Shown here in pieces: positions 5,324 to 60,800 of a DNA stretch of 64,000 nucleotides (positions are counted from its first letter, which is position 1; each line of letters begins with the position of its first letter). This stretch comes from Pseudomonadota bacterium (GTDB lineage: Bacteria > Pseudomonadota > Gammaproteobacteria > Burkholderiales > JABEVD01). The position numbers were made by a program, and so were the translations under genes. The stretch covers positions 1-64,000 of the forward strand of contig JAJZQY010000006.1 of the NCBI GenBank assembly GCA_021806605.1. Direction: 5' to 3'. Below the pieces are notes generated by a model, which made no database searches, was not told the origin of the DNA, and worked only from the letters and a program-made list of their open reading frames with translations.

Positions 5324-7311
<1,988 letters not shown>

Positions 7312-7713
7312 TCAGTCCTTGTCCGTATCGCCTATGCCGAGAACGAGGATGCCGTCCATTTCGACCTGCGCCCCTTTCGGAAGACTCGCCACCCCGACTG
7401 CGGCGCGGGCGGGATAGGGTTCGGTGAAATAGCTCCCCATGATCTCGTTGAGCTTGGGGAAATGGGCAAGATCGGTCATGTAGACGTTGAGCTTGACGAG
7501 ATTGCCGAGGGACCCGCCGCATGCCTTGGCGACCGCCGAGAGATTCCCGAAAACCCGGTGGATCTGCGCCTCCACCCCCTCTTCGAGCTGCATGGTGGAC
7601 GGGTCGAGCCCGATCTGTCCGGAAAGGTAAACCGTGTCCTTGGCGCGCACGGCCTGGGAATAGGTGCCGATCGCCTTGGGCGCGGCGCTTGTGCTGATGA
7701 TCTGCTTCGTCAT
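7312..7713 (-). CDS. ridA: RidA-family enamine/imine deaminase
   Basis: The 133-residue YjgF/YER057c/UK114 protein hydrolyses reactive enamines and imines made by PLP enzymes such as threonine dehydratase. Visible hallmarks are the GTYSQAV start region, SGQIGLDP, and the C-terminal [21 protein letters not shown], whose Arg binds the substrate carboxylate. The start at 7713 follows a purine-rich GGAAGAAGAA; an upstream ATG would add twelve unrelated residues. It lies between rep and recG in the same orientation. Confidence 0.93.
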
Positions 7714-7726
7714 TTTCTTCTTCCTT

Positions 7727-9703
7727 TCATGTTGATCCGTTTCCTGCAAGCGCCGACTTGAGCATGGCGAGCTTCTCGTTTCCCATCGACTTCGTGACGG
7801 TCGTGCCGGAGAACTTCAGGTCTTCCCCCAGTTCGGCGATGAACCGGCTCGGCTCGCAAACCTGGATCTCCTTCGCCCGCTTGCGCTTCTGGCAATAGCT
7901 TATGGCAAGACCCTCCCTCGCTCTCGTCACCCCCACGTACATCAGGCGCCGCTCTTCCTCGATGCCGGATTCGCTCATGGATTCCTGATGCGGCAGTATC
8001 CCCTCCTCCACCCCGACCAGGAAAACCTGTTTGAATTCCAGCCCCTTCGCGGCATGCAGCGTGGAAAGCTGCACCGCGTCGTAGTCTTCCTCCTGCCGAT
8101 CGAGCAGGTTCATGAGCGTGATCGTCTGGGTGAGTTCGACCAGATTCTTGCCCTCCTCTTCACCCTTCTTCGCGATCCAGGCAGAAAAATCCGTGACGTT
8201 TTCCCATTTCGATTTCGCCTGCCTCGGCTCATCTGAATCGAAAAGATAGGCCTCGTAGCCTATCGCCTTCAAAAGATCGTTGATGATCTCCCCTGCGGGG
8301 GCCTTTCCGGCTTCGAATTGCAGATTATTGATGAAATTGCAGAAGGCGAGCAATGGCTCCATCTGCTTTGGAGAAATCTCGTGGGCAAATCCCGCCTCGA
8401 AAGCCGCCTCGAACATGCTCGCGTGGCGCTTTCCGGCATAGCGCCCCAAGGCTTCCAGGGTCTGGTTCCCCACGCCGCGCTTCGGGGTGGTCACCGCGCG
8501 CACGAAAGCGGGATCGTCGTCCGGATTCACGAGCAGCCTCAGGTAGGCGACGATATCCTTGATTTCGCTTCGATCGAAGAAGGAAAGGCCGCCGCTGACC
8601 CGGTAGGGCACCTTCTCCTCCCGCAGATATTGTTCGAAGAGCCTCGCCTGGTGGTTGCCCCGGTAGAGGATAGCGTAGTCCGAAAACTTTCCCCTGCGTT
8701 CGAACTTGTGTGCGAGCAGCGACCTCGCCACGGTTTCCGCCTCGTGCTCTTCGTCCCTTGCCGCAACCACCCTGATCGGCTCCCCGTGCCCGAGATCCGA
8801 CCAGAGCTTCTTCTCGAAAATCTTGGGATTGTTTGAAATCAGGCTGTTGGCGGCCTTCAGTATCCTGACCGTGGAGCGGTAATTCTGCTCCAGCTTGATC
8901 ACTTCCAGATTGGGATAATCGCGGCTCAACTCGGCGATGTTCTCCTTGGAAGCCCCCCTCCAGGCATAGATCGCCTGGTCGTCGTCCCCCACCGCAGTGA
9001 ACGCTCCTCTTGATCCTGCCAGGAGCTTGATCAGGCGGTACTGGGAAAGATTGGTATCCTGGTATTCGTCTATCAGGAGATAGCGCAGCCTTCCCTGCCA
9101 CTTTTCCTGCGCCTCGCGATCGTTGGCGAGAAGCTCGACCGGCAGCCGGATCAGGTCGTCGAAGTCGACCGCCTGATAAGCCTGCAGGGTGGCCTGGTAA
9201 TCGCGGTAGACCCGCGCCATCAGGTGTTCTTCCTCGTCCCTTGCCCCGGAGAGGGCGGCATCCGGGGAGACCAGATTGTTTTTCCATCCTGAAATCCGGG
9301 AAGCGAGCGATCTCACCAGCTTCTTGTCCGTGGTCTTGAAAAGCTCCATCAGGATGCCCGATGCATCCGCGGAATCGAGGATGGAAAAGCGCGACTTGAG
9401 CCCGAGCTTTTCCGATTCGCTTCTCACCATGGCAAGCCCCAGAGAATGGAAGGTCGACAGGGTCAGTCCCTTCCCGCTTCCCTTGAGCAGCTTGCCCACC
9501 CGCTCCTGCATTTCCTTCGCTGCCTTGTTGGTGAAGGTGATCGCTGCGACATGGGAAGGGGAATAGCCGCATTCCTCGATCAGATAGGCGATCTTGTGCG
9601 TGATCACGCGGGTCTTGCCGCTCCCCGCGCCGGCAAGCACCAGGAGCGGGCCGTCGATATGCCTGACGGCTGAAGATTGCGGTGGATTGAGCTTGGAGAA
9701 CAT
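7727..9703 (-). CDS. rep: UvrD/Rep-type DNA helicase, Rep subfamily
   Basis: Rep is a 3'-5' superfamily 1A helicase that helps forks pass protein blocks. The 658 residues include Walker [12 protein letters not shown], motif Ia [12 protein letters not shown], Walker B DEYQDTN, QNYRST, and the C-terminal [10 protein letters not shown]. Length and N-terminus ([13 protein letters not shown]) match Rep (673 in E. coli) better than UvrD, which is longer. The frame remains open upstream of 9703 but without the family pattern, so the ATG at the conserved N-terminus is used. A TAGAAT-like -10 lies about 30-40 bases upstream. Confidence 0.93.
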
Positions 9704-25802: not shown

Positions 25803-26336
25803 ATGACCCCCTCCCTGTACACGGAGCGGCTCGAATTGCGCCCCCTGAAAAAGGAGGACGGCGAAGACTTCCTGGCGATTTTTTCCAATCCCGAGGTGAC
25901 GCGGTATTACGAAGTCGAAACCATGACCAAACTTTCGGAGGCGAGCATCCTGCTCGATCATTTCATTGCCATCGGGCGGCTCGGGATCTGCCTGAAGGGA
26001 AATTCCAGAATCATCGGCAGCTGCGGGCTTTTCGCCCTCAACGCGGAATACTTCTCCGCATCCCTGGGCTACGATCTGGCGCGGGAATGCTGGGGGAGGG
26101 GAATCATGACCGAGGCGCTCAGAGCCCTGCTCGGCTTCGGCTTTTCATCGCTGGGGCTCAACCGGATCAATGCCTTGACCTATCCCGACAATGCCGCCTC
26201 GATCAGGGTGCTGGCGGGCCTGGGCTTCAGAATGGAAGGGACCATGCGCGAATTCGGCTTCTGGAAGGGCAGCTTTCACGACATGGCCCTGCACGCCCTG
26301 CTGCGCAGCGAATGGCGCTTCCGACAGGATGCCTGA
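25803..26336 (+). CDS. GNAT N-acetyltransferase (RimJ/RimL type)
   Basis: The 177-residue single GNAT domain has TERLELRPL at the N-terminus and the acetyl-CoA-binding segment YDLARECWGRGIMTEAL, followed by NxxSIRVLAGLGFRMEGTMRE, typical of RimJ/RimL relatives that acetylate ribosomal or other protein N-termini. It is placed five bases after the GGDEF-EAL gene and overlaps the EAL-CZB gene by eight bases (ATGCCTGA), so its expression is locked to c-di-GMP turnover. Whether it modifies one of those proteins is speculation. Confidence 0.85.
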   Translation: MTPSLYTERLELRPLKKEDGEDFLAIFSNPEVTRYYEVETMTKLSEASILLDHFIAIGRLGICLKGNSRIIGSCGLFALNAEYFSASLGYDLARECWGRGIMTEALRALLGFGFSSLGLNRINALTYPDNAASIRVLAGLGFRMEGTMREFGFWKGSFHDMALHALLRSEWRFRQDA

Positions 26337-27504
26337 CGTGAAGCTGCATGAACTGGAATCCGCTGTCGAGAACGGCGAATTCGTCTATTACTACCAGCCC
26401 AAGATCTCCCTCGTCACAGGCAGAATCAGCGGGGCGGAAGCCCTGATACGCTGGATCAGAACCGACGGCGAAATCGTTCTGCCGAACAGGTTCATTCCTC
26501 TGGCCGAATCGACCGGATTCATCACCGAAATCAGCCTGGCGATGTTCCCGAAGCTGGTCACCGACGCCCTGATCGTCAACGACGTCAACGCGAAGCTGGT
26601 CACTGCATTCAATCTCTCGGCAAAGGATTTCGAGAACAGGCATCTCCTTCATGCCATCCAGGACGCTTCTGGCCGGATCGATCTGGCTCGACTGGGGGCG
26701 GAACTGACTGAGGCGTCGGTGATCGGCCTGGGCAACAGCAGCGCCCTCGGCAACCTGAGGGAACTGGCCGAAAGCGGAATCCGCCTGGCGATGGACGATT
26801 TCGGCACGGGATATTCCTCGATCGACACGCTGAGCCGCCTGCCTTTCGACATCATCAAGCTCGATCAGGGGCTGATCAGCCGCATGTCCGATTCCGAAAG
26901 GAGCGCAACCATCGTCCTGGCGAGCATCCGCATGGCCCACCAGCTCGGCATGGAAATCGTGGCCGAAGGCATAGAAACCGCCTCCGCCTACGACTTCCTG
27001 CTTCACGCGGGATGCAGCGAAGTTCAGGGTTTCTGGATTGCGAAGCCGATGCCTCTGGACGATTACCTGGCGTTCATCCGCAAGGACCAGATCTGGACGG
27101 GGCTGCCCACCGGACTCATCCACATGGCGATTCTCGACCATGTGCAATGGCGCCAGCAGCTCATCTCCAGGGTGACTTCGCTCGCCTTCAATGGCAGGGT
27201 CGATGAGGCAGCGATACGCGCCTCCGATGTGGAAGTGGATCACCATCAATGCAAGCTGGGGAGATGGTACTACGGCGTGGGCCAGGCATTTCGCGGGCAC
27301 CCGGTTTTCGACCGGCTCGAAGAGCCGCACCGGCTCCTGCACCAGGCAGGATTCGATCTGCTCGAATCGGCCAGGCAGGGCCTGTCCAGAAGCGAGCTGA
27401 CACGGCAGATGCGCATGCTGACGCACCAGTCGTCGCGCATCATCGAACTGCTTCAGGAACTGGAAAGCGAGGCGATGATCGACCTTTCCTTGAAGCGCGT
27501 CTGA
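26329..27504 (+). CDS. EAL phosphodiesterase with C-terminal zinc-binding CZB domain
   Basis: The product is 391 residues. The EAL domain (about 5-250) retains the catalytic set E37-A-L, N95, E125/E128, DD156-157, K177 and E213, so c-di-GMP hydrolysis is expected. The C-terminal part (about 262-390) is a CZB domain: H271, C308 in HHQCKLGRWYYG, and H334-x3-H338, matching the 3His-Cys zinc site of DgcZ. CZB usually partners diguanylate cyclases and chemoreceptors, so an EAL-CZB fusion implies zinc or hypochlorite-sensitive degradation of c-di-GMP. It has no membrane segment. It overlaps the GNAT gene by eight bases. Confidence 0.88.
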   Translation: MPDVKLHELESAVENGEFVYYYQPKISLVTGRISGAEALIRWIRTDGEIVLPNRFIPLAESTGFITEISLAMFPKLVTDALIVNDVNAKLVTAFNLSAKDFENRHLLHAIQDASGRIDLARLGAELTEASVIGLGNSSALGNLRELAESGIRLAMDDFGTGYSSIDTLSRLPFDIIKLDQGLISRMSDSERSATIVLASIRMAHQLGMEIVAEGIETASAYDFLLHAGCSEVQGFWIAKPMPLDDYLAFIRKDQIWTGLPTGLIHMAILDHVQWRQQLISRVTSLAFNGRVDEAAIRASDVEVDHHQCKLGRWYYGVGQAFRGHPVFDRLEEPHRLLHQAGFDLLESARQGLSRSELTRQMRMLTHQSSRIIELLQELESEAMIDLSLKRV

Positions 27505-27507
27505 ATC

Positions 27508-28140
27508 TCAGGAGAACGGCTTCTCGCGCGCATCCCTCAGCGTCTTCACCACTTGCGCATCCTCGATCTGGGGAAAATCCCTGTAGAACTGGCCGACAGC
27601 CTGGAAACATTCCGGGACTTCCAGGCAAACGGTTTCGTCGGCAAGCGGCCTTATTTTCTCCAGCGCCTCGGGGGGGGAAACCGGAACCGCGCAGATCAAC
27701 TTCGAGGGATTTCTCGAACGCAATGCGTGAAGCGCCGAGATCATGGTCGAACCGGTAGCGAGTCCGTCGTCGATGACGATGGCGATCCGTCCTTCTGGGT
27801 CGATCGGGGGCATGTATCCGGCGCGCCTTTTGGCAATGACTTCGAGCTGCGCCGCCTTTTCGCGCTCGATGTATGCCGGCCCCGCGCCCTCGGCCGCAGC
27901 ATAATCCGCGACATAACACCAGCCGGATTCGTCCACCGATCCTACCGCGAATTCCGGGCTGTAGGGCGAGCGCAGCTTTCTCACCAGAACGACGTCGAGA
28001 TCCCCCTGCAGCTCCGCGGCGATGATTCTGCCCATGGGAACGGCGCCGCGCGGAATGGCGAGTATCAGCGGATGCCTGCCCCTGTAATGCGCCAGCCTTT
28101 TCGCAAGCAGCCTTGCGGCTTCCTCCCTGTCAGCGAACAT
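27508..28140 (-). CDS. Phosphoribosyltransferase-domain protein
   Basis: The 210-residue type I PRTase fold has the PRPP loop IAIVIDDGLATGSTM and upstream LAIPRGAVPMG, as in the stand-alone 'predicted phosphoribosyltransferase' family with the FADREEAARLLAKRL N-terminus. The base substrate is unknown. The start at 28140 has GGGGGAATC before it and matches the family start. It is last in the oxyR-rubrerythrin-rubredoxin-reductase row, so it may be co-transcribed, though the link in function is unclear. Confidence 0.8.
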   Translation of the reverse strand: MFADREEAARLLAKRLAHYRGRHPLILAIPRGAVPMGRIIAAELQGDLDVVLVRKLRSPYSPEFAVGSVDESGWCYVADYAAAEGAGPAYIEREKAAQLEVIAKRRAGYMPPIDPEGRIAIVIDDGLATGSTMISALHALRSRNPSKLICAVPVSPPEALEKIRPLADETVCLEVPECFQAVGQFYRDFPQIEDAQVVKTLRDAREKPFS

Positions 28141-28174
28141 GATTCCCCCTGTCTCTTTCCAGCATAGCAAACAA

Positions 28175-29284
28175 TCAGGAAAGGACGGCGGGAAGCTCCT
28201 TCGCAAGCAGATTCTTTTCGGATACCGCCTTGCCGCAAAGCGCGAATCCGAGCATCTTCCCGTCTTCGCCCAGAAAAACCGATTTCACGCCTTCGGCATC
28301 GGCTTCAGTATGCCAGGCGCCCTTCGAACCCGCTTTCGGCGGGGAAACCACAGCCGGACAGGAAGGCGTTTTGACGACCACGGGCATCGCAGGGTAAACG
28401 AGAGATTCCCTTTCTCCCAGCACATTCCGGGCGAGTATTTTGGATGCGTGCATGATGGGCATCACGAAGGGCAGAACCTGCCCCTCGATTTCCATGCAGT
28501 CCCCTATTGCGTAGACATCCCGTGCGCTCGTCTCCAGTTGCCGGTTGACCAGAATTCCCCTCGCGCATTCCAGTCCCGCATCCTGCGCAAGCCCGATCCT
28601 GGGCTTCAGCCCCACTGCGGAAAGAACGATATCGGCCTGGAAAGCGCTGCCGTCTTCGAGGAGGATGCTTCCCTTTTCGATTTTCGCGATCTTCACCCCC
28701 CAATGCCAGGCGATTCCCTTCATGGCCTTCTCCATCCACTTCCCGCATTCTGGCGTCACCAGCCGGCCCAGCGGCTGACTCGCGATGTCGAAAACGTCGA
28801 CTTCGAATCCGCTTGATGAAAGATCGTCGGCGAATTCGCAACCGACCAGGCCCGCACCGATTATTGCAACCCTTTTCTTCCCTTCCAGCGCTTTCCTGAA
28901 TCCGGCATAGCCGGACAGGTCATTGACTGAAAGCGCGTCCGCATGAAGACGCAGCGGGTCCGCGCCGAGGGCGAGCACGAGCCTGGCATAGCGCAGCTTC
29001 TCCCCATCTATCGAAATTTCGTGATCGCCGGGGAAAATCGCATCCACGCGGACATCCGTCCTGATTCTGGCATCCAGCTCCGCCGCCATCTGGGCGGCGC
29101 TCTTGATGACGAGCGAACCCGGGTCTTTCCCCGAGGAGAATGCGTTCGAGAGCATGGGCTTGGAATAGAAATCCCCCGAATCCATCGAGACCAGAAGAAG
29201 CGGGACTTCCCTGTCCAGCCTTCTGATCTCCTTAGCGCTCTGGTAGCCTGCGAGCCCGCTCCCCACGATCACGACCGGATCCAT
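28175..29284 (-). CDS. FAD-dependent rubredoxin reductase
   Basis: The 369-residue pyridine-nucleotide-disulfide-type oxidoreductase has the FAD site VVIVGSGLAGYQSA at the N-terminus, a second NAD(P)H site VAIIGAGLVGCEFADDL (about 140-156), and the FAD-closing DVYAIGDC. There is no active-site CxxxxC, as expected for rubredoxin-NAD+ reductases (RubB/AlkT type). The gene lies four bases behind the rubredoxin gene, which is its probable electron acceptor. The chain NADH to reductase to rubredoxin to rubrerythrin would reduce H2O2. Confidence 0.88.
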   Translation of the reverse strand: MDPVVIVGSGLAGYQSAKEIRRLDREVPLLLVSMDSGDFYSKPMLSNAFSSGKDPGSLVIKSAAQMAAELDARIRTDVRVDAIFPGDHEISIDGEKLRYARLVLALGADPLRLHADALSVNDLSGYAGFRKALEGKKRVAIIGAGLVGCEFADDLSSSGFEVDVFDIASQPLGRLVTPECGKWMEKAMKGIAWHWGVKIAKIEKGSILLEDGSAFQADIVLSAVGLKPRIGLAQDAGLECARGILVNRQLETSARDVYAIGDCMEIEGQVLPFVMPIMHASKILARNVLGERESLVYPAMPVVVKTPSCPAVVSPPKAGSKGAWHTEADAEGVKSVFLGEDGKMLGFALCGKAVSEKNLLAKELPAVLS

Positions 29285-29288
29285 GATC

Positions 29289-29453
29289 TCAGACCTCGAC
29301 CATCTCGAAATCCGATTTCGCCACGCCGCAATCCGGGCAGTTCCAGCTCTCCGGAATGTCTCCCCATTTCGTTCCGGCGGCTATCCCCTCTTCGGGCATG
29401 CCGACAGCTTCGTCGTAAACGAATCCGCAAACCACGCATTGCCATTTCTTCAT
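29289..29453 (-). CDS. Rubredoxin
   Basis: The 54-residue protein has the two iron-binding knuckles C6-x-x-C9 (CVVC) and C39-x-x-C42 (CPDC) and the conserved tail DFEMVE. One Fe(SCys)4 centre carries single electrons. Its ATG overlaps the rubrerythrin stop (ATGA) and the reductase follows closely, so three linked parts of a peroxide-reducing chain are encoded together. Confidence 0.96.
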
Positions 29454-29929
29454 GACTTTCTCCCGGTTGAAATTCTTTCGAGCGCCTCGCGGTAGTGTGC
29501 GGCATGCCGCTCCTCCACCTTCGCCAATGCCGAGAAGCGCTTCGCCGCTTTCTGCAAGGTGGCGATGAACCTTTGCGCATGTTCCTTCGATTCGGCTATC
29601 TGCTCGTCCATTTCGGCAAGCGCATCGATTCTTCCCTCCTCCTCGGCTTCCTTCCTGAAGGAAGGGTACATCTCGGTATATTCGTAAGTTTCCCCGGCTA
29701 TCGCCATTTCCAGGCATTTTTCCGGCGTCGTCTCCTCCGCAGGATGGAGCAGTTCGAGATGGCCGAAGGCATGCAACACTTCCTGGGCTGCTGTTTCCTC
29801 GAACACCTTTGCGGTTTCGATATCCCCGGCCCTGCGGCACTGCCTGGCGAAATAGAGGTATTTGATATGGGCCATCGACTCGCCCGCGAAGGCGGATTCG
29901 ATGTTCCTGACGGTCGGCGATGATTTCAT
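29450..29929 (-). CDS. Rubrerythrin (without fused rubredoxin domain)
   Basis: The product is 159 residues and corresponds to the ferritin-like di-iron domain only. Predicted iron ligands fall at E17, E50-x-x-H53, E80, E83 and E139-x-x-H142, in the order of the rubrerythrin family. Canonical rubrerythrins have a C-terminal rubredoxin domain; here it is a separate overlapping gene. The protein reduces hydrogen peroxide in the cytoplasm. The start at 29929 has AAAGGAG before it. Confidence 0.92.
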
Positions 29930-30033
29930 CTCGGTCTCCTTTGCATGCACAAGAGCAAACGCTCAGGGACCATGTTACAAAGGAGAAATAGCCTAGTCCA
30001 ATTGATTGTTTATGCCGTATCGATAGAAACTGG

Positions 30034-30978
30034 TTATGATCCTGCGGTTTTCCCGTCGAGCGGAACGATGCCGGGAAGGTTGCAGTCCAGAATCGACTGC
30101 CTGACCGCCTCGACTGCCTGAGGCCTGTAGAAGCTCTTGCGCCAGGCGAGCACGACGCGCCTCGATGGCACCGGAGAGGAAAACGGCCGGATGGCTATCA
30201 GGGCATTTCTCGATTCTTCCGCATCCGCTGCGGTTGCAGGCAGCACGGTGATCCCGGCGCCGGATGCGACCATGTAGCGGATCGTCTCCAGGGAGCTGCC
30301 TTCCACGGTTTTCTGCAGGCCAGAGGAAGCCGCGATGGCGCGGCTCAGGGCGGAACTCGCCTGCAGCACCTGATCCCTGAAGCAGTTTCCCGCCGCGAGC
30401 AGGAAAAGGTTGTCCTGGGCAAGCTGGGAAGCCGAAATGCTGGCTTTGGCAACCCATTTGTGATTGACGGGCAACGCCACGCGGAAGGGCTCTTCATAGA
30501 CTTCCTGCGTCACGATCCCGGGCTCCGAAAACGGGGTGGAAAGGATCGCGACATCGAGTTCGCCGCGCTTCAGGAGATCGGCGAGGCGGTTGGTGAAATT
30601 CTCCTGGATCAGAAGCGGCATGAGCGGCGCCCTGTCGTGCAGCACCGGGATCAGCCTGGGAAACAGGTAGGGGGCGATGGTATAGATCGCGCCTATCCTG
30701 AGTGAGCCGTTCAGCTGCTCCTTCCCCTTGTGCACCATCTGCCTGATCGCAGTCGCCTCTTCCAGGACGCGCTTTGCCTGGACCACGACCTGCTCCCCTA
30801 TCGGCGTCACGGAAACGTCGCTCATGCCGCGCTCGAAAAGCGTAACGCCGAGTTCGTCCTCGAGTTTCCTCACCGCCACGCTCAGGGTGGGCTGGCTGAC
30901 GAAGCAGGACCTCGCAGCCCTGCCAAAATGCCGCTCTCGCGCCAATGCAACGATGTATTTGAATTCCGTGAGTGTCAT
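30034..30978 (-). CDS. oxyR: OxyR-type LysR regulator lacking the resolving cysteine
   Basis: The 314-residue protein has a LysR winged HTH (1-60; [19 protein letters not shown]) and the OxyR sensor domain with AAGNC199FRDQ and [20 protein letters not shown]. Peroxidatic Cys199 aligns exactly with E. coli, but position 208 is Ser (QAS208SAL) where E. coli and most betaproteobacterial OxyR have the disulfide partner Cys. Other cysteines (C25, C299) are distant. The usual C199-C208 switch is therefore impossible and another oxidation state would have to signal. It lies 104 bases upstream of the rubrerythrin operon in the same direction and is its likely regulator. Confidence 0.87.
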
Positions 30979-31064
30979 GGTTCCTCTTGCCGAGCCGATA
31001 CAACGGACTTACCAGAACTGCTCAATATAGTCAAAATCCATTTTCTTGACAAGAAAACAGCCTG

Positions 31065-55254: not shown

Positions 55255-55520
55255 TATTCCTGTTCTAGCAGTTCGTTTAATTTTCCGGCACGGTCGAGCG
55301 CCGCGAGATCGTCATAACCGCCGACATGATAATCCATGATGTAGATCTGCGGAACGGTGCGCCTGCCGGTTTTTTCCATCATTTCAGCCCTGACCGCAGG
55401 ATCGAGATCGACCCTGATCTTTTCGATCTCGGCCACGCCCTTCGATTTCAGAAGGCGCTCTGCCATCGAGCAATAGGGGCACACGGCAGTGCAGTACATC
55501 CTGACCTTGGGCATGCTCAT
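55254..55520 (-). CDS. grxC: Glutaredoxin 3
   Basis: The 88-residue protein has the dithiol active site C14-P-Y-C17, the cis-proline TVPQIYI and the [15 protein letters not shown] glutathione site. It reduces mixed disulfides and ribonucleotide reductase. The start overlaps the rhodanese stop (ATGA) and is preceded by GGTGGAGAA. Confidence 0.94.
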
Positions 55521-55927
55521 TTCTCCACCGGAAGTTTGGCACCCTCCCAGGAGAGAATTCCCCCCTTGAGGTTGTGGACCTTGCCGAAACCCCGCTTCGA
55601 CAATAACACACAAACGCTGGACGATCTAGCGCCGCTTCTGCAATAGACGACGATCGGCTTGTCCTTGAGATTCTCGATCTCGCCGATTCGCTCGTCCACC
55701 TGCCCGGACGGAATATGCCTGGCATTGTACAGATGCCCGGCGGCATATTCGTGGTGCTCGCGCACGTCGAGGATGGCAGCATCCTGATGGTTGATCAGGT
55801 TGACCGCTTCGACGGTGTCGATCTCCGGAAAATTGACGAACAGTTTTCTGAAATAGGGCCAGAGCAGCATGAGCCCGCTGCCCAATGCCGCCAGAAAAAG
55901 CGGCAGATTACTGGTGATGAAATGCAA
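55517..55927 (-). CDS. Membrane-anchored rhodanese-domain protein (YibN-like)
   Basis: The 136-residue protein has an N-terminal membrane helix (about 8-24) and one rhodanese domain with active Cys96 in VVYCRSGARSS, where persulfide can form. E. coli YibN has the same size and place before grxC-secB. The start is TTG, supported by AAGGAG eight bases upstream, and overlaps the pglL end by 20 bases. A role in sulfane-sulfur handling fits the nearby ArsR regulator. Confidence 0.9.
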   Translation of the reverse strand: MHFITSNLPLFLAALGSGLMLLWPYFRKLFVNFPEIDTVEAVNLINHQDAAILDVREHHEYAAGHLYNARHIPSGQVDERIGEIENLKDKPIVVYCRSGARSSSVCVLLSKRGFGKVHNLKGGILSWEGAKLPVEK

Positions 55928-57644
55928 AGTTTCGCTCCTTCAGTTTCAGGTTCACTTCCTCGACGAGCGGCTCGAATTTCCCCGGTTCCTTCTCGGCCAG
56001 ATCCGAATAAAGATCCCGGGCATCTTCGAGCAGATCGGGGTCGGACCAAGCCGCCCGTCGGATTTCAAGCTTCGCCGCGCCTTCCCTGCCGGCAAGCGTG
56101 AGCAGCGCCGCGCGCCGGTAGACAAGCATTCCGGAAGGCGAAAAATGCAGCGCCCGACGGCTCAGCCTGAGCTTGCCGTCGAGGTTTGTTTCATCGACAG
56201 GCAGCATCTCGGCCATCGGGTATTCGACATAGGGAACGAGCAGCGTTCCCTTCCTGAAGCGGTAAAGCGCATCGTAAAGCGCCGCCGGCTTGAGGGGAGG
56301 CTTTCCGTTATGATAACTTGGGTAGAGCAATCCTTCCAAATCGAGATAATCCCTCATCAATCCCGCCATCAGGTAGCTTCCGGCGGCCAGGAGCAGAATC
56401 GTGACTCCCGGTGCGCCAGGCAGGCGCAGCGAGCGGGACTCCCCCATGCCGAGAAAAAGCATGAAAATCCCGAGAAAATGCGCATACCAGAGAGGATATT
56501 CGTCCAGACTGTGCAGTGCGAGGACCAGCAGCACCGCGAAAAGCCACCAGGCATGGATGTCGAATGCGATGTCGATGCGCCTCGCCCAGAAGAAAATGCC
56601 CCCGAATACCAGCAGGACTCCCGCAAGCCCCGTCTCGGCAAGCAGATGGAATGCAATGTCATGGGCATTGCTGTAAAGCCCTGTGATCTGCGGATCGTTG
56701 AATACCGGACCGTATCCGAAATGATGCCAGGCGAACTGCCCGAATCCGACCCCGAGCAGGGGCGCCTTGAGGAACATCATCCAGGCTTCGCGCCAGAGGT
56801 AGAACCGGATGCCGCTGTCCCGCCCGATGACGAGCAGCCTGTCCCCGGAAGTCATGGTGCCGTGCCCGCCCAGAAAAGAGAAGTGGGCCAGAAACTGCAT
56901 CAGGGCAAAAGCAGGCACCAGGAGCAGCGCAGCGATCAGCAGCACCCCGTTTCTTTGCCGCCCATGCAGGAGCAGCGCAAGCAATGTCAACGCAGCGAGA
57001 TAGAGCCAAGCGCTTCTGGAACCGCTCAGGGCAAGCATGAACAGCAGAAAACCGCCGAGCGGCAATGCCGCGAGCCGATGGATTTTTCCGGATGCTGCAA
57101 GATAGAGCAGGGACGCTATGGCAAGCGTCATGTAATCCGAGAAATGATTCTGCTGGGCAAGGTTGCCGTAAACCCCCCCGGAGGCATCGGGCGTGACAAA
57201 GACACCGAAGGCGGCGTGATCGAAATAGTGCTGCAGCACAGCGGCGACTCCGCTCGCCAGCCCCCCAGCAAGAATGAACCATGCCAGGGTCCGAACGATT
57301 TTTTCCAGCCCGAATTCACCTTTGAGGGCATATCCCAGCATGGCGAGCAGGGCCCCCCAGACGAGATAAAGCGTGGCCAGGGCAGCCTGCTGGGGATAGG
57401 TTATCCTGCCGAGCAGGAACTGCAGCCAGATGAGCAGCATCAGGGCAAGCGGAACGAGCGACACCAGAGGAAGCCTCGAAAGCCGCCTGCAATTGCAGGC
57501 GAGGGCGCAAATCCCCAGGAAAGCTGCGACCCACTCGGTATAGAAATCGGTGATGGGATAATAATGCTTCCATTGCAGGAAGGGCACAACCCCCATCAAC
57601 CCGACGAAAATCAGGCTGAGGCGCGACCAGGAAACCTGGTTCAA
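55908..57644 (-). CDS. PglL/Wzy-type O-oligosaccharyltransferase or O-antigen ligase
   Basis: The 578-residue polytopic protein has about eleven membrane helices and the Wzy_C/PglL layout: SGSRSAWLYLAAL, a large periplasmic loop with GFGQFAWHHFG and the catalytic-type SNAHDIAFHLLAETG (His), and a hydrophilic C-terminal domain ending in HHQ. PglL enzymes move lipid-linked glycans to Ser/Thr of proteins; WaaL transfers O-antigen to lipid A. Which one this is cannot be decided without neighbouring glycan genes, and none is present. The TTG start overlaps the DUF2892 stop (TTGA). Confidence 0.8.
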   Translation of the reverse strand: MNQVSWSRLSLIFVGLMGVVPFLQWKHYYPITDFYTEWVAAFLGICALACNCRRLSRLPLVSLVPLALMLLIWLQFLLGRITYPQQAALATLYLVWGALLAMLGYALKGEFGLEKIVRTLAWFILAGGLASGVAAVLQHYFDHAAFGVFVTPDASGGVYGNLAQQNHFSDYMTLAIASLLYLAASGKIHRLAALPLGGFLLFMLALSGSRSAWLYLAALTLLALLLHGRQRNGVLLIAALLLVPAFALMQFLAHFSFLGGHGTMTSGDRLLVIGRDSGIRFYLWREAWMMFLKAPLLGVGFGQFAWHHFGYGPVFNDPQITGLYSNAHDIAFHLLAETGLAGVLLVFGGIFFWARRIDIAFDIHAWWLFAVLLVLALHSLDEYPLWYAHFLGIFMLFLGMGESRSLRLPGAPGVTILLLAAGSYLMAGLMRDYLDLEGLLYPSYHNGKPPLKPAALYDALYRFRKGTLLVPYVEYPMAEMLPVDETNLDGKLRLSRRALHFSPSGMLVYRRAALLTLAGREGAAKLEIRRAAWSDPDLLEDARDLYSDLAEKEPGKFEPLVEEVNLKLKERNFAFHHQ

Positions 57645-57850
57645 CAAGCATCCTTGACGCCGAACTTCCTGAGGATGTTCTCCAGGGGACAGAAGCGGGA
57701 GAAGCCGCTCTGGAACAGGTTGAATCCGACGAAAGCGGTGAACCAGAGCCATTTCGAGTTCATGAAAAGCGGGCTGCCCTCCGCGCCAAGCGCCAGGGAC
57801 AGCATGACGAAAAATCCGGCGACAATTCTAACGATTCGGTTGGTGTTCAT
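57641..57850 (-). CDS. DUF2892 small membrane protein
   Basis: The 69-residue protein with two membrane helices has the DUF2892 pattern (RIVAGFFVMLSLALG, WFTAFVGFNLFQSGFSRFCPLENILRKFG). In E. coli YgaP this domain is fused to rhodanese, and YgaP is controlled by YgaV, an ArsR relative. Here DUF2892, a rhodanese and a YgaV-like repressor are separate genes in one block. AAGGAG precedes the ATG; a TTG one codon upstream is also possible. Confidence 0.88.
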   Translation of the reverse strand: MNTNRIVRIVAGFFVMLSLALGAEGSPLFMNSKWLWFTAFVGFNLFQSGFSRFCPLENILRKFGVKDAC

Positions 57851-57865
57851 CAATATGGCTCCTTG

Positions 57866-60800
57866 TTAAATTTTATCAATTTTCCTGTAGGACAGGGCGT
57901 AATACAGCACCGGGATCACGACCAGGGTGAGGATGGTCGAAACCAGTATGCCGAAAATCAGGGAGATGGCGAGTCCGTTGAAGATGGGATCGTCCAGGAT
58001 GAAGAAGGCCCCTATCATCGCGGCAAGCCCAGTCAGCAATATGGGTTTGGCGCGCGTCGCTGCGGCGGAGATCACCGCCTCCTGGAAATCCACTTCCTCG
58101 GCGACCTGCAGGTTGACGAAATCGACCAGCAGTATCGAATTCCTGACGATGATGCCGGCGAGCGCGATCATGCCTATCATCGAAGTCGCGGTGAATTGGG
58201 CGCCCAACAGGGCATGCCCCGGCATCACGCCGATGATGGTGAGCGGAATCGGCGCCATGATCACGAGCGGAACGAGATAGGACCTGAACTGCGCCACGAC
58301 CAGGAGATAGATGAGCACGAGTCCGACGCCGTAAGCGATGCCCATGTCCCTGAAAGTCTCATAGGTGACCTGCCATTCGCCGTCCCATTTCACGGCATAG
58401 CCGGCATAGGGGTCCCCTGGCTGGCGGATGAAATATTCCTTCAGCGTGCCGCCTTGCGGGAGCTTCATGCCGAGAATTTTCGAGCGGATATCGAACATGC
58501 CGTAGAGCGGACTGTCGATCTTGCCGGCCATGTCCCCGACCACGTAAACCACGGGAAGCAGGTCCTTGTGGTAAATCGTCTTCTCGCGCGGCACATGAAC
58601 CACCGCGACAAGGTCGGACAGGGGAATCATCTCGCCGCTTCTCGATCGCACTTCCAGCTTGAGGAGGTCGTCGAGATTGCCCTTTCTGTCCGAGGGCAGC
58701 GCCACCCTGACGGGAATCTCGTACTTCGCATTCAGACTGTGCACGGGCGTCACGTTCTCGCCGGAGAGCCCCATCTTCATCACCTCGACGACATCCTTCT
58801 GCGCAACGCCTCGCAAGGCCGCCTTGTTCTGCAGCACCTTCAGGGTGACTTTCCCGGCATCGGCATCGACGCTGTCGTCTATCCCGACGATGCCGGGGGT
58901 TTGCGCGAATGCGGCCTTGATTTTTTCGGCCACCGCGATCTGCCCGGCATAATCCGGGCCGTAAACTTCGGCAACCAGCGGGGACATGACCGGGGGCCCC
59001 GGCGGCACTTCGACGATCTTGGTCTTTGCGCCGTATTTCTTGGCGATTTGCGCAATCGGGGCGATCACGCTTGATGCGATCTCGTGGCTCTGCCTGCTGC
59101 GCTTGTGCTTGTCCAGGAGATTGACCTGGAGGTCGCCGTATTCCGGGCCGTCCCTGAGATAATACTGGCGCACCAGTCCGTTGAAATTGATCGGCGCGGC
59201 AGTGCCCGCATAGGCCTCGTAATCGGTGACTTCGGGAACCCTGGCGATATAGGCGCCTATCTCGTGCAGCACTTTGGCGGTATCCTCGAGAGGGGTTCCT
59301 ACAGGCATGTCGACCACGACCTGGAACTCCGACTTGTTGTCGAAAGGCAGCATCTTGAGCACGACGAGCTTCACGGCGGCCAGCGATACCGCGAGCAGGA
59401 TCAGGACCACGATCCCGATCAGGAGGAGCTTTCTGTTCCTGCTTCCCTCCTCCCTCCTCAAGAAAGGCGTGAGCCTGGAAGAAAAGAAGGCGCCGATCTT
59501 GCCGGATCCCGATTCCTGATGCACATGCTTGCCCGCGAGCCTGAAGGCGAGCCAGGGCGTCACGATAAAGGCGATGGCCAAGGATATCAGCATGCCGATG
59601 CTCGCGTTGATCGGTATCGGGCTCATGTAGGGGCCCATCAGCCCGGTCACGAAAGCCATGGGCAGGAGCGCCGCAATCACGGTCAGGGTGGCGAGGATGG
59701 TGGGGCCGCCCACTTCGTCCACCGCCTCGGGAATGATCTCCGACAAGGGGGCTTCCGAAAGAAGCCGCCTTCTGTGAATGTTCTCCACCACCACGATCGC
59801 ATCGTCGACCAGGATGCCTATGGAAAAAATCAGCGCGAACAGGGAAACCCGGTTCAGGGTGAAGCCCCAGGCCCAGGATGCGAACAGCGTGGCGAACAGG
59901 GTGAGCATCACCGCGACGCCGACGATCACGGCTTCGCGGCGGCCCAGCGCGAGCCATACCAGCACCACCACGGACGTGGTGGCGAAGATCAGTTTCTCGA
60001 TCAGCTTGATCGCCTTGTCATTGGCCGTCACGCCGTAATCGCGCGTCACCGTGACTTCCACGTTGGAGGGAATCACGCTGCCCTTGAGCTGCCCGATTCT
60101 TTCGATCAGCTGCTTCGCCACCTTGACCGCATTTTCGCCGGGCTTTTTCGAAATGGCGAGGGTCACCGCGGGATGCTCGCCCGGTTTGCCGCCTATCCAC
60201 ACGTAATGCTCCGGCTGGTCAGGGCCGTCCACGACCTGCGCCACATCGCCCATGAAAATCGGCCTGCCGTCCTGCACGCCGACCACGAGGCGCCTCACGT
60301 CGTCGCTGGACGTGAGGAAGGTGCCGGTCTGGACCAGCACTTCCCGATTGTCCCTGATCAGATTCCCGGAGGGCTGGGAGGCATTGGAAAACTGCAGCGC
60401 ATCCCTCAGGTCTTCCGCCGAAAGATGGTAAGCGTTCATCCTGTCCGCATCCATCAGCACCCTGATCACGTGCCTGGGGCCTCCTATGGTCCTGACCTCC
60501 CTGACGCCTGCCACGCGCTTCAGTTCGATTTCCGCGGAATGCGCCACCTGCTCGAGCTCGAAGGCCCCCTCGTTGCTGTTTCTGGTCCAGAGCGTGAGGG
60601 TCAGGATGGGAACATCGTCTATCCCTATCGGCTTGATGATCGGCTTGGAAACGCCCAGATAGGGGGAAACCCAGTCTTCATGCGAATTGATCGTGTCGTA
60701 CAGCTTGACGAGCGACTGTATCCTGTCCTCGCCGACCTTGAACTGCACGGTGAGAACGGCCATCCCGGGGCGGGACACCGAATAGACATGATCGATCCCC

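Follow-up and report, generated by a model that had tools for sequence, protein, structure and literature searches.

Introduction

In the two-cysteine OxyR proteins, such as those of Escherichia coli, Pseudomonas aeruginosa and Neisseria meningitidis, the textbook switch is an H2O2-induced disulfide between the peroxide-reactive Cys199 and the resolving Cys208. In the reduced neisserial protein, a helix is described as starting at C199, with C208 placed between two helices and 18 Å away (PMC2881104). Whether this disulfide is needed, or one modified thiol is enough, is disputed, and both sides are cited in the reports that we draw on (PMC2881104, PMC2225504).

The label "one-cysteine OxyR" is already known. 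Deinococcus radiodurans DR0615, which has one of the two redox cysteines left, is described as a working H2O2 sensor acting by sulfenic acid (PMC2225504), but the cysteine it keeps is the equivalent of C208 (C210), and C199 is missing (PMC2881104). The combination of C199 with a replaced Cys208 is reported for the mutants C208S, C208Y, C208G and C208A of E. coli, Vibrio natriegens and Neisseria, all of them recent and in a two-cysteine background. Mycobacterial OxyS is another LysR-type oxidative-stress regulator, in which Cys25 is reported to matter and is the only regulatory cysteine (PMC3260234). Of a natural OxyR that keeps C199 only, we found no description in the open-licence PubMed Central literature.

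The window analysed here, 64,000 nucleotides of contig JAJZQY010000006.1 from a bacterium of the Burkholderiales (assembly GCA_021806605.1), encodes such a protein. It has the length, fold and DNA-binding domain of the two-cysteine proteins, as well as their C199 with its surroundings, and differs from them in having Ser at 208 and no C199-C208 disulfide. It is the reverse of the Deinococcus case, since C199 is the cysteine kept. Unlike the mutants, it carries Ser208 genus-wide and has diverged while keeping C199, and unlike OxyS, it has C199 and its surroundings intact.

Results

The gene and the two codons concerned are:

30034..30978, minus strand: oxyR, 314 aa, LysR-type, with Ser208 (open reading frame; PDB and fold matches to OxyR)
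30382..30384, minus strand: Cys199 codon TGC, the peroxide-reactive cysteine of OxyR (translation and E. coli alignment)
30355..30357, minus strand: Ser208 codon AGT, replacing the resolving Cys208 (translation and E. coli alignment)

The translated frame contains cysteines at positions 25, 199 and 299 only. Numbering is identical at both sites when the protein is aligned with E. coli K-12 OxyR, E. coli C199 falling on C199 and C208 on S208, so that the original prediction of a Cys199 at the E. coli position and a serine (AGT) at 208 is borne out. The range it gave, 30334-30390, does correspond to residues 197-215, but the range it suggested for reading the codons, 30360-30390, narrowly misses codon 208. 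Judging by the translated protein, an H2O2-induced C199-C208 disulfide is impossible here, as had been claimed.

The identification of the gene as OxyR also held. The Pfam HTH_1 and LysR_substrate domains were both found, and the top NCBIfam model was OxyR, scoring 233 bits where the cut-off is 329; the Cys208 protein of Sulfuricella likewise falls under this cut-off (234.7 bits). The closest solved structures are OxyR of P. aeruginosa and N. meningitidis, the top PDB matches being P. aeruginosa 4x6g and 4y0m, both with Cys at position 208. An AlphaFold2 model built from 36 sequences (mean pLDDT 87) ranked OxyR first in a fold search, and 4y0m and 3jv9, both reduced regulatory domains, matched it with a target-normalised TM of about 0.9. 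In the model, helices span residues 199-207 and then 209-217, and this predicted layout is the reduced arrangement of neisserial OxyR.

Ser208 was then followed across the genus and its relatives. Cys199 and Ser208 were present together in the full-length orthologues of eight genus genomes, the window's included, and also in a ninth, partial copy (L038), hence in 9/9 genomes. The serine codon is AGT or AGC depending on the genome, and the four nearest relatives have TGC. Occurrence in all nine genomes and this codon variety rule out a sequencing or assembly error, the check that had been proposed; the homologues with Cys208 all lie outside the genus. The 22/22 best matches examined in other genera of the order have Cys208, as do the nearest outside relatives, Sulfuricella (the nearest named one) and its kin, so that Ser208 goes beyond background variation. 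Among 80 loci from named genomes, Cys208 was found in 74 and Ser208 in six, all six belonging to this genus and coming from metagenome-assembled genomes whose label goes no further than Proteobacteria or Burkholderiales bacterium. An order-wide search with the motif GN/H-C-F-R-D-Q-V, which detects only genes matching it exactly, returned a codon 208 not beginning with T in 9 of 399 sampled genomes, precisely the nine of the genus; this arm of the search is blind to Tyr, Phe, Trp, TCN-Ser and TTR-Leu at 208. The same motif with Cys208 occurred in 153 genomes, none from the genus.

A protein tree of 83 rows was computed with column 208 removed, leaving out the partial L038 and the six named loci that duplicate genomes of the genus (L041-L045, L050). 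In this quick tree, which has a long E. coli branch, the Ser208 proteins form a single clade (SH-aLRT 100) adjoining the Sulfuricella-type Cys208 proteins (support 81), and a single change at position 208 is needed. The substitution is thus confirmed as real and fixed in the genus. As no sampled member has Cys208, there can be no textbook disulfide switch, and OxyR of this genus must be either a sensor by another route or no switch at all.

The gene has been kept under strong purifying selection, with dN/dS of 0.033-0.098 over 28 pairs from eight genus genomes; values of 0.03-0.10 rule out a pseudogene or a drifting gene. Residues 197-207 are identical in 9/9 genus genomes at the aligned positions listed. 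The window's protein has T100, T129, R201 and D202, which we take to be the pocket residues of C199, and T100 and T129 are unchanged in the 8/8 full-length genus proteins. Among genus-specific features are F192, where 74/74 relatives have Leu, and Y284, where they have Pro or Thr, and position 209, Pro in 72/74 relatives, is Ser in 5/9 genus genomes. Activating substitutions elsewhere in the protein were considered and rejected, as the genus has no specific change at the positions compared, which are presumably the sites of activating mutations in E. coli OxyR. The genus genomes showed no second, normal OxyR (completeness 82% for the window's genome and 99% for three other members), the other LysR matches listed being below 30% identity.

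Downstream of oxyR, on the same strand, lies a conserved block with oxyR first, followed by genes for rubrerythrin, rubredoxin and rubredoxin reductase (rbr-rd-rdr):

29450..29929, minus strand: rubrerythrin without the C-terminal rubredoxin-like domain (profile matches; ATG start read)
29289..29453, minus strand: rubredoxin, 54 aa, overlapping the rubrerythrin stop
28175..29284, minus strand: rubredoxin reductase (pyridine nucleotide-disulfide oxidoreductase with a rubredoxin-binding C-terminal domain)
27508..28206, minus strand: phosphoribosyltransferase-domain gene, start uncertain, the conserved next gene in the genus

The three products of the block likely make up an NADH-driven peroxide reductase. 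The original prediction noted neither this block nor the operator-like site, nor the extent of the trait. Sulfuricella and several further Cys208 relatives have the same gene order, so oxyR and the block were already linked when Cys208 was lost. Among the genus genomes, the G007 locus showed no rdr next to oxyR, and two loci, L037 (G005) and L038 (G002), lack rbr, rd, rdr and the operator beside oxyR, the phosphoribosyltransferase gene adjoining instead. Both of these genomes retain C199 and S208, the G002 gene being cut by the contig end, and their OxyR must act on other targets or serve another role. Just past the block, at 26191-27504 on the plus strand, lies a gene whose product combines an EAL domain with a C-terminal CZB zinc-binding domain; it is conserved beside the block in one close relative.

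Between oxyR and rbr, and before oxyR, we found the following candidate regulatory sites:

29988..30037, minus strand: OxyR-operator-like site before rbr, in two overlapping registers (11 and 12 of 16 bases)
29972..30001, minus strand: possible rbr promoter TTGGAC-N18-TAACAT, weak, read by eye from the alignment
31024..31052, minus strand: sigma-70-like oxyR promoter TTGTCA-N17-TATATT (consensus scan, 10/12 matches)

The reference motif was ATAG-N7-CTAT-N7-ATAG-N7-CTAT, the OxyR motif of PMC8787470. The window's 12/16 register is the best of 127928 positions on both strands, a figure that counts each place twice, the motif being palindromic. Four Cys208 relatives have 14/16 motif bases between oxyR and rbr, against 10-13/16 at the aligned place in seven genus members. 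Three of the latter (G004, G007, G008) have equal scores elsewhere in the locus, and for these the argument for an operator depends on the aligned CTAT...ACAATCAATT. The genus has thus retained the putative operator, in a weaker form than the Cys208 relatives. The first hexamer of the possible rbr promoter, which the consensus promoter scan missed, abuts the operator-like site.

Genes with a bearing on thiol and peroxide chemistry were sought in the nine genus genomes (G000-G008). Glutathione synthetase was present in 9/9, eight of them over cut-off, and glutaredoxin in 9/9. AhpC/TSA-family proteins are many, and were left unsorted. Members of the genus differ in their peroxide and sulfur genes: katG, sought as an expected OxyR target, was found in 1/9 genomes and soxB over cut-off in 5/9. 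The window itself holds a glutaredoxin-family gene at 55323-55502 on the minus strand. Two of its long open reading frames, 55869-57869 and 5692-7761, both on the plus strand (666 and 689 aa), have no Pfam match at 1e-10 and may be spurious, the opposite strand also having long frames.

A census of the class covered 369 genomes, with the C199 motif matched in 119. It tests the second base of codon 208 and is blind to Phe, Leu, Val, Ile and Met codons. The TG-ending matches that were read as protein (n=29) all had Cys208. Seven places lacked the TG ending, and the six outside the window were read: four were chance matches and two were OxyR genes with Tyr208, both belonging to one family (f104). 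All 40 sampled genomes of this family have OxyR. In the 30 loci read from them (among L161-L162 and L167-L196), C199 is present and Cys208 absent in 30/30, residue 208 being Tyr in 17 and Phe in 13. T100, T129 and R201 are unchanged in all 30 loci and D202 in 29. The oxyR neighbourhood was read in two f104 genomes, and neither showed a rubrerythrin block there.

Discussion

The retention of C199 and its surroundings in two lineages that lack Cys208 suggests that C199 still does chemistry. Our main reading is that OxyR of this genus is a one-thiol sensor acting on C199, through a sulfenic acid or a mixed disulfide, to which we give a probability of roughly 0.5. Peroxide would oxidise Cys199 in its intact pocket, and without Cys208 as a trap the C199 sulfenic acid itself could be the signal. 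Alternatively, the signal could be a mixed disulfide formed from the sulfenic acid and a small thiol such as glutathione; with glutathione synthetase and glutaredoxin in the genus, both the mixed disulfide and its reduction are possible. The modified residue would shift the C199 helix, located at the dimer-dimer interface, and so alter the seating of OxyR on operators such as the site preceding rubrerythrin. The outcome would be an adjusted expression of the NADH-rubredoxin-rubrerythrin peroxide reductase, with glutaredoxin or thioredoxin resetting the regulator. All these chemical and regulatory steps are what we infer from the genes and the protein. That one cysteine with a sulfenic acid can serve is reported for the Deinococcus OxyR (PMC2225504). 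The purifying selection on oxyR, the failure to find a second OxyR in the genus, and the retained gene block and operator-like site also speak for this reading. Against a one-thiol sensor stand the weaker putative operator in the genus, the two genomes without rbr-rd-rdr beside oxyR, and the reported behaviour of the C199 and C208 mutants described below.

A serious rival is a regulator blind to redox state. Here the loss of Cys208 would have loosened the reduced tetramer, leaving OxyR partly or fully locked on, or else a fixed repressor, with its targets at a set level; C199 would persist as a requirement of the fold or of DNA binding. The rival is serious because C208Y is reported to be constitutive (Kullik 1995, as cited in PMC7038661) and C208G, which arose in evolved E. 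coli and Vibrio natriegens, is postulated to be so (PMC7038661), and Tyr or Phe occupies position 208 in f104. In the neisserial protein, C208A is reported as repressing without being able to activate, and C199S as neither repressing nor activating, which counts against taking the conservation of C199 as a sign of a redox role (PMC2881104). The E. coli C208S protein is reported to lose the response to H2Sn (PMC6831875). The weaker operator and the rarity of katG point the same way. However, this reading does not readily account for a stretch 197-207 identical throughout the genus with its surroundings kept, nor for the lack of genus-specific change at the other presumed positions of activating mutations, and serine is a mild replacement where Tyr or Gly is not. 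We regard a redox-blind protein as possible, though less probable than the one-thiol sensor.

Another way to preserve a disulfide would be for C199 to pair with C299, with C25 or with the C199 of a neighbouring subunit. Both C25 and C299 are present in the 8/8 full-length genus proteins, and mycobacterial OxyS is reported to sense through Cys25 (PMC3260234). However, the two residues are common to the Cys208 relatives, C25 occurring in 79/80 and C299 in 54/80 of the named-genome loci (genus included), and thus neither arose in exchange for Cys208. A replacement cysteine gained within the genus can be ruled out, the proteins having only C25, C199 and C299, with an extra C256 in one genome. In the f104 loci, position 299 is Cys in 0/30, and another C-terminal cysteine, the neisserial C305, is described as lying on the face opposite C199 (PMC2881104). 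The use of another cysteine, one of the options in the original prediction, thus appears the less likely from the sequences compared, and we consider it quite improbable.

Finally, C199 could be persulfidated by sulfane sulfur, the persulfide staying unresolved without Cys208, as might suit a sulfur-oxidising cell; H2Sn is reported to persulfidate E. coli C199 with no detectable C199-C208 link, the nearest named Cys208 relative is Sulfuricella, and SoxB is over cut-off in 5/9 genus and 39/40 f104 genomes, but the E. coli response to H2Sn needs Cys208 (PMC6831875), the genes linked to oxyR are of the peroxide type, and SoxB is also over cut-off in 20/40 Cys208 control genomes, which, with only two lineages compared, shows no association with Cys208 loss, so that we hold this reading to be very unlikely.

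Returning to the one-thiol sensor, a broader proposal would be that natural OxyR proteins with C199 alone form a recurring class, which became fixed on two or more independent occasions (once with Ser208, once with Tyr or Phe208). In this class the disulfide signal would give way to one state of a single thiol, possibly a mixed disulfide or a persulfide of a kind that suits sulfur-oxidising cells. We offer this generalisation as a speculation, and a rather doubtful one. Laboratory mutants cannot fully settle the dispute on whether OxyR needs its disulfide, because the mutant protein is not adapted to the loss. The two natural lineages with a constrained C199 and no Cys208 provide ready-made proteins for that question, and the putative rubrerythrin operator would be a natural target promoter on which to ask it.
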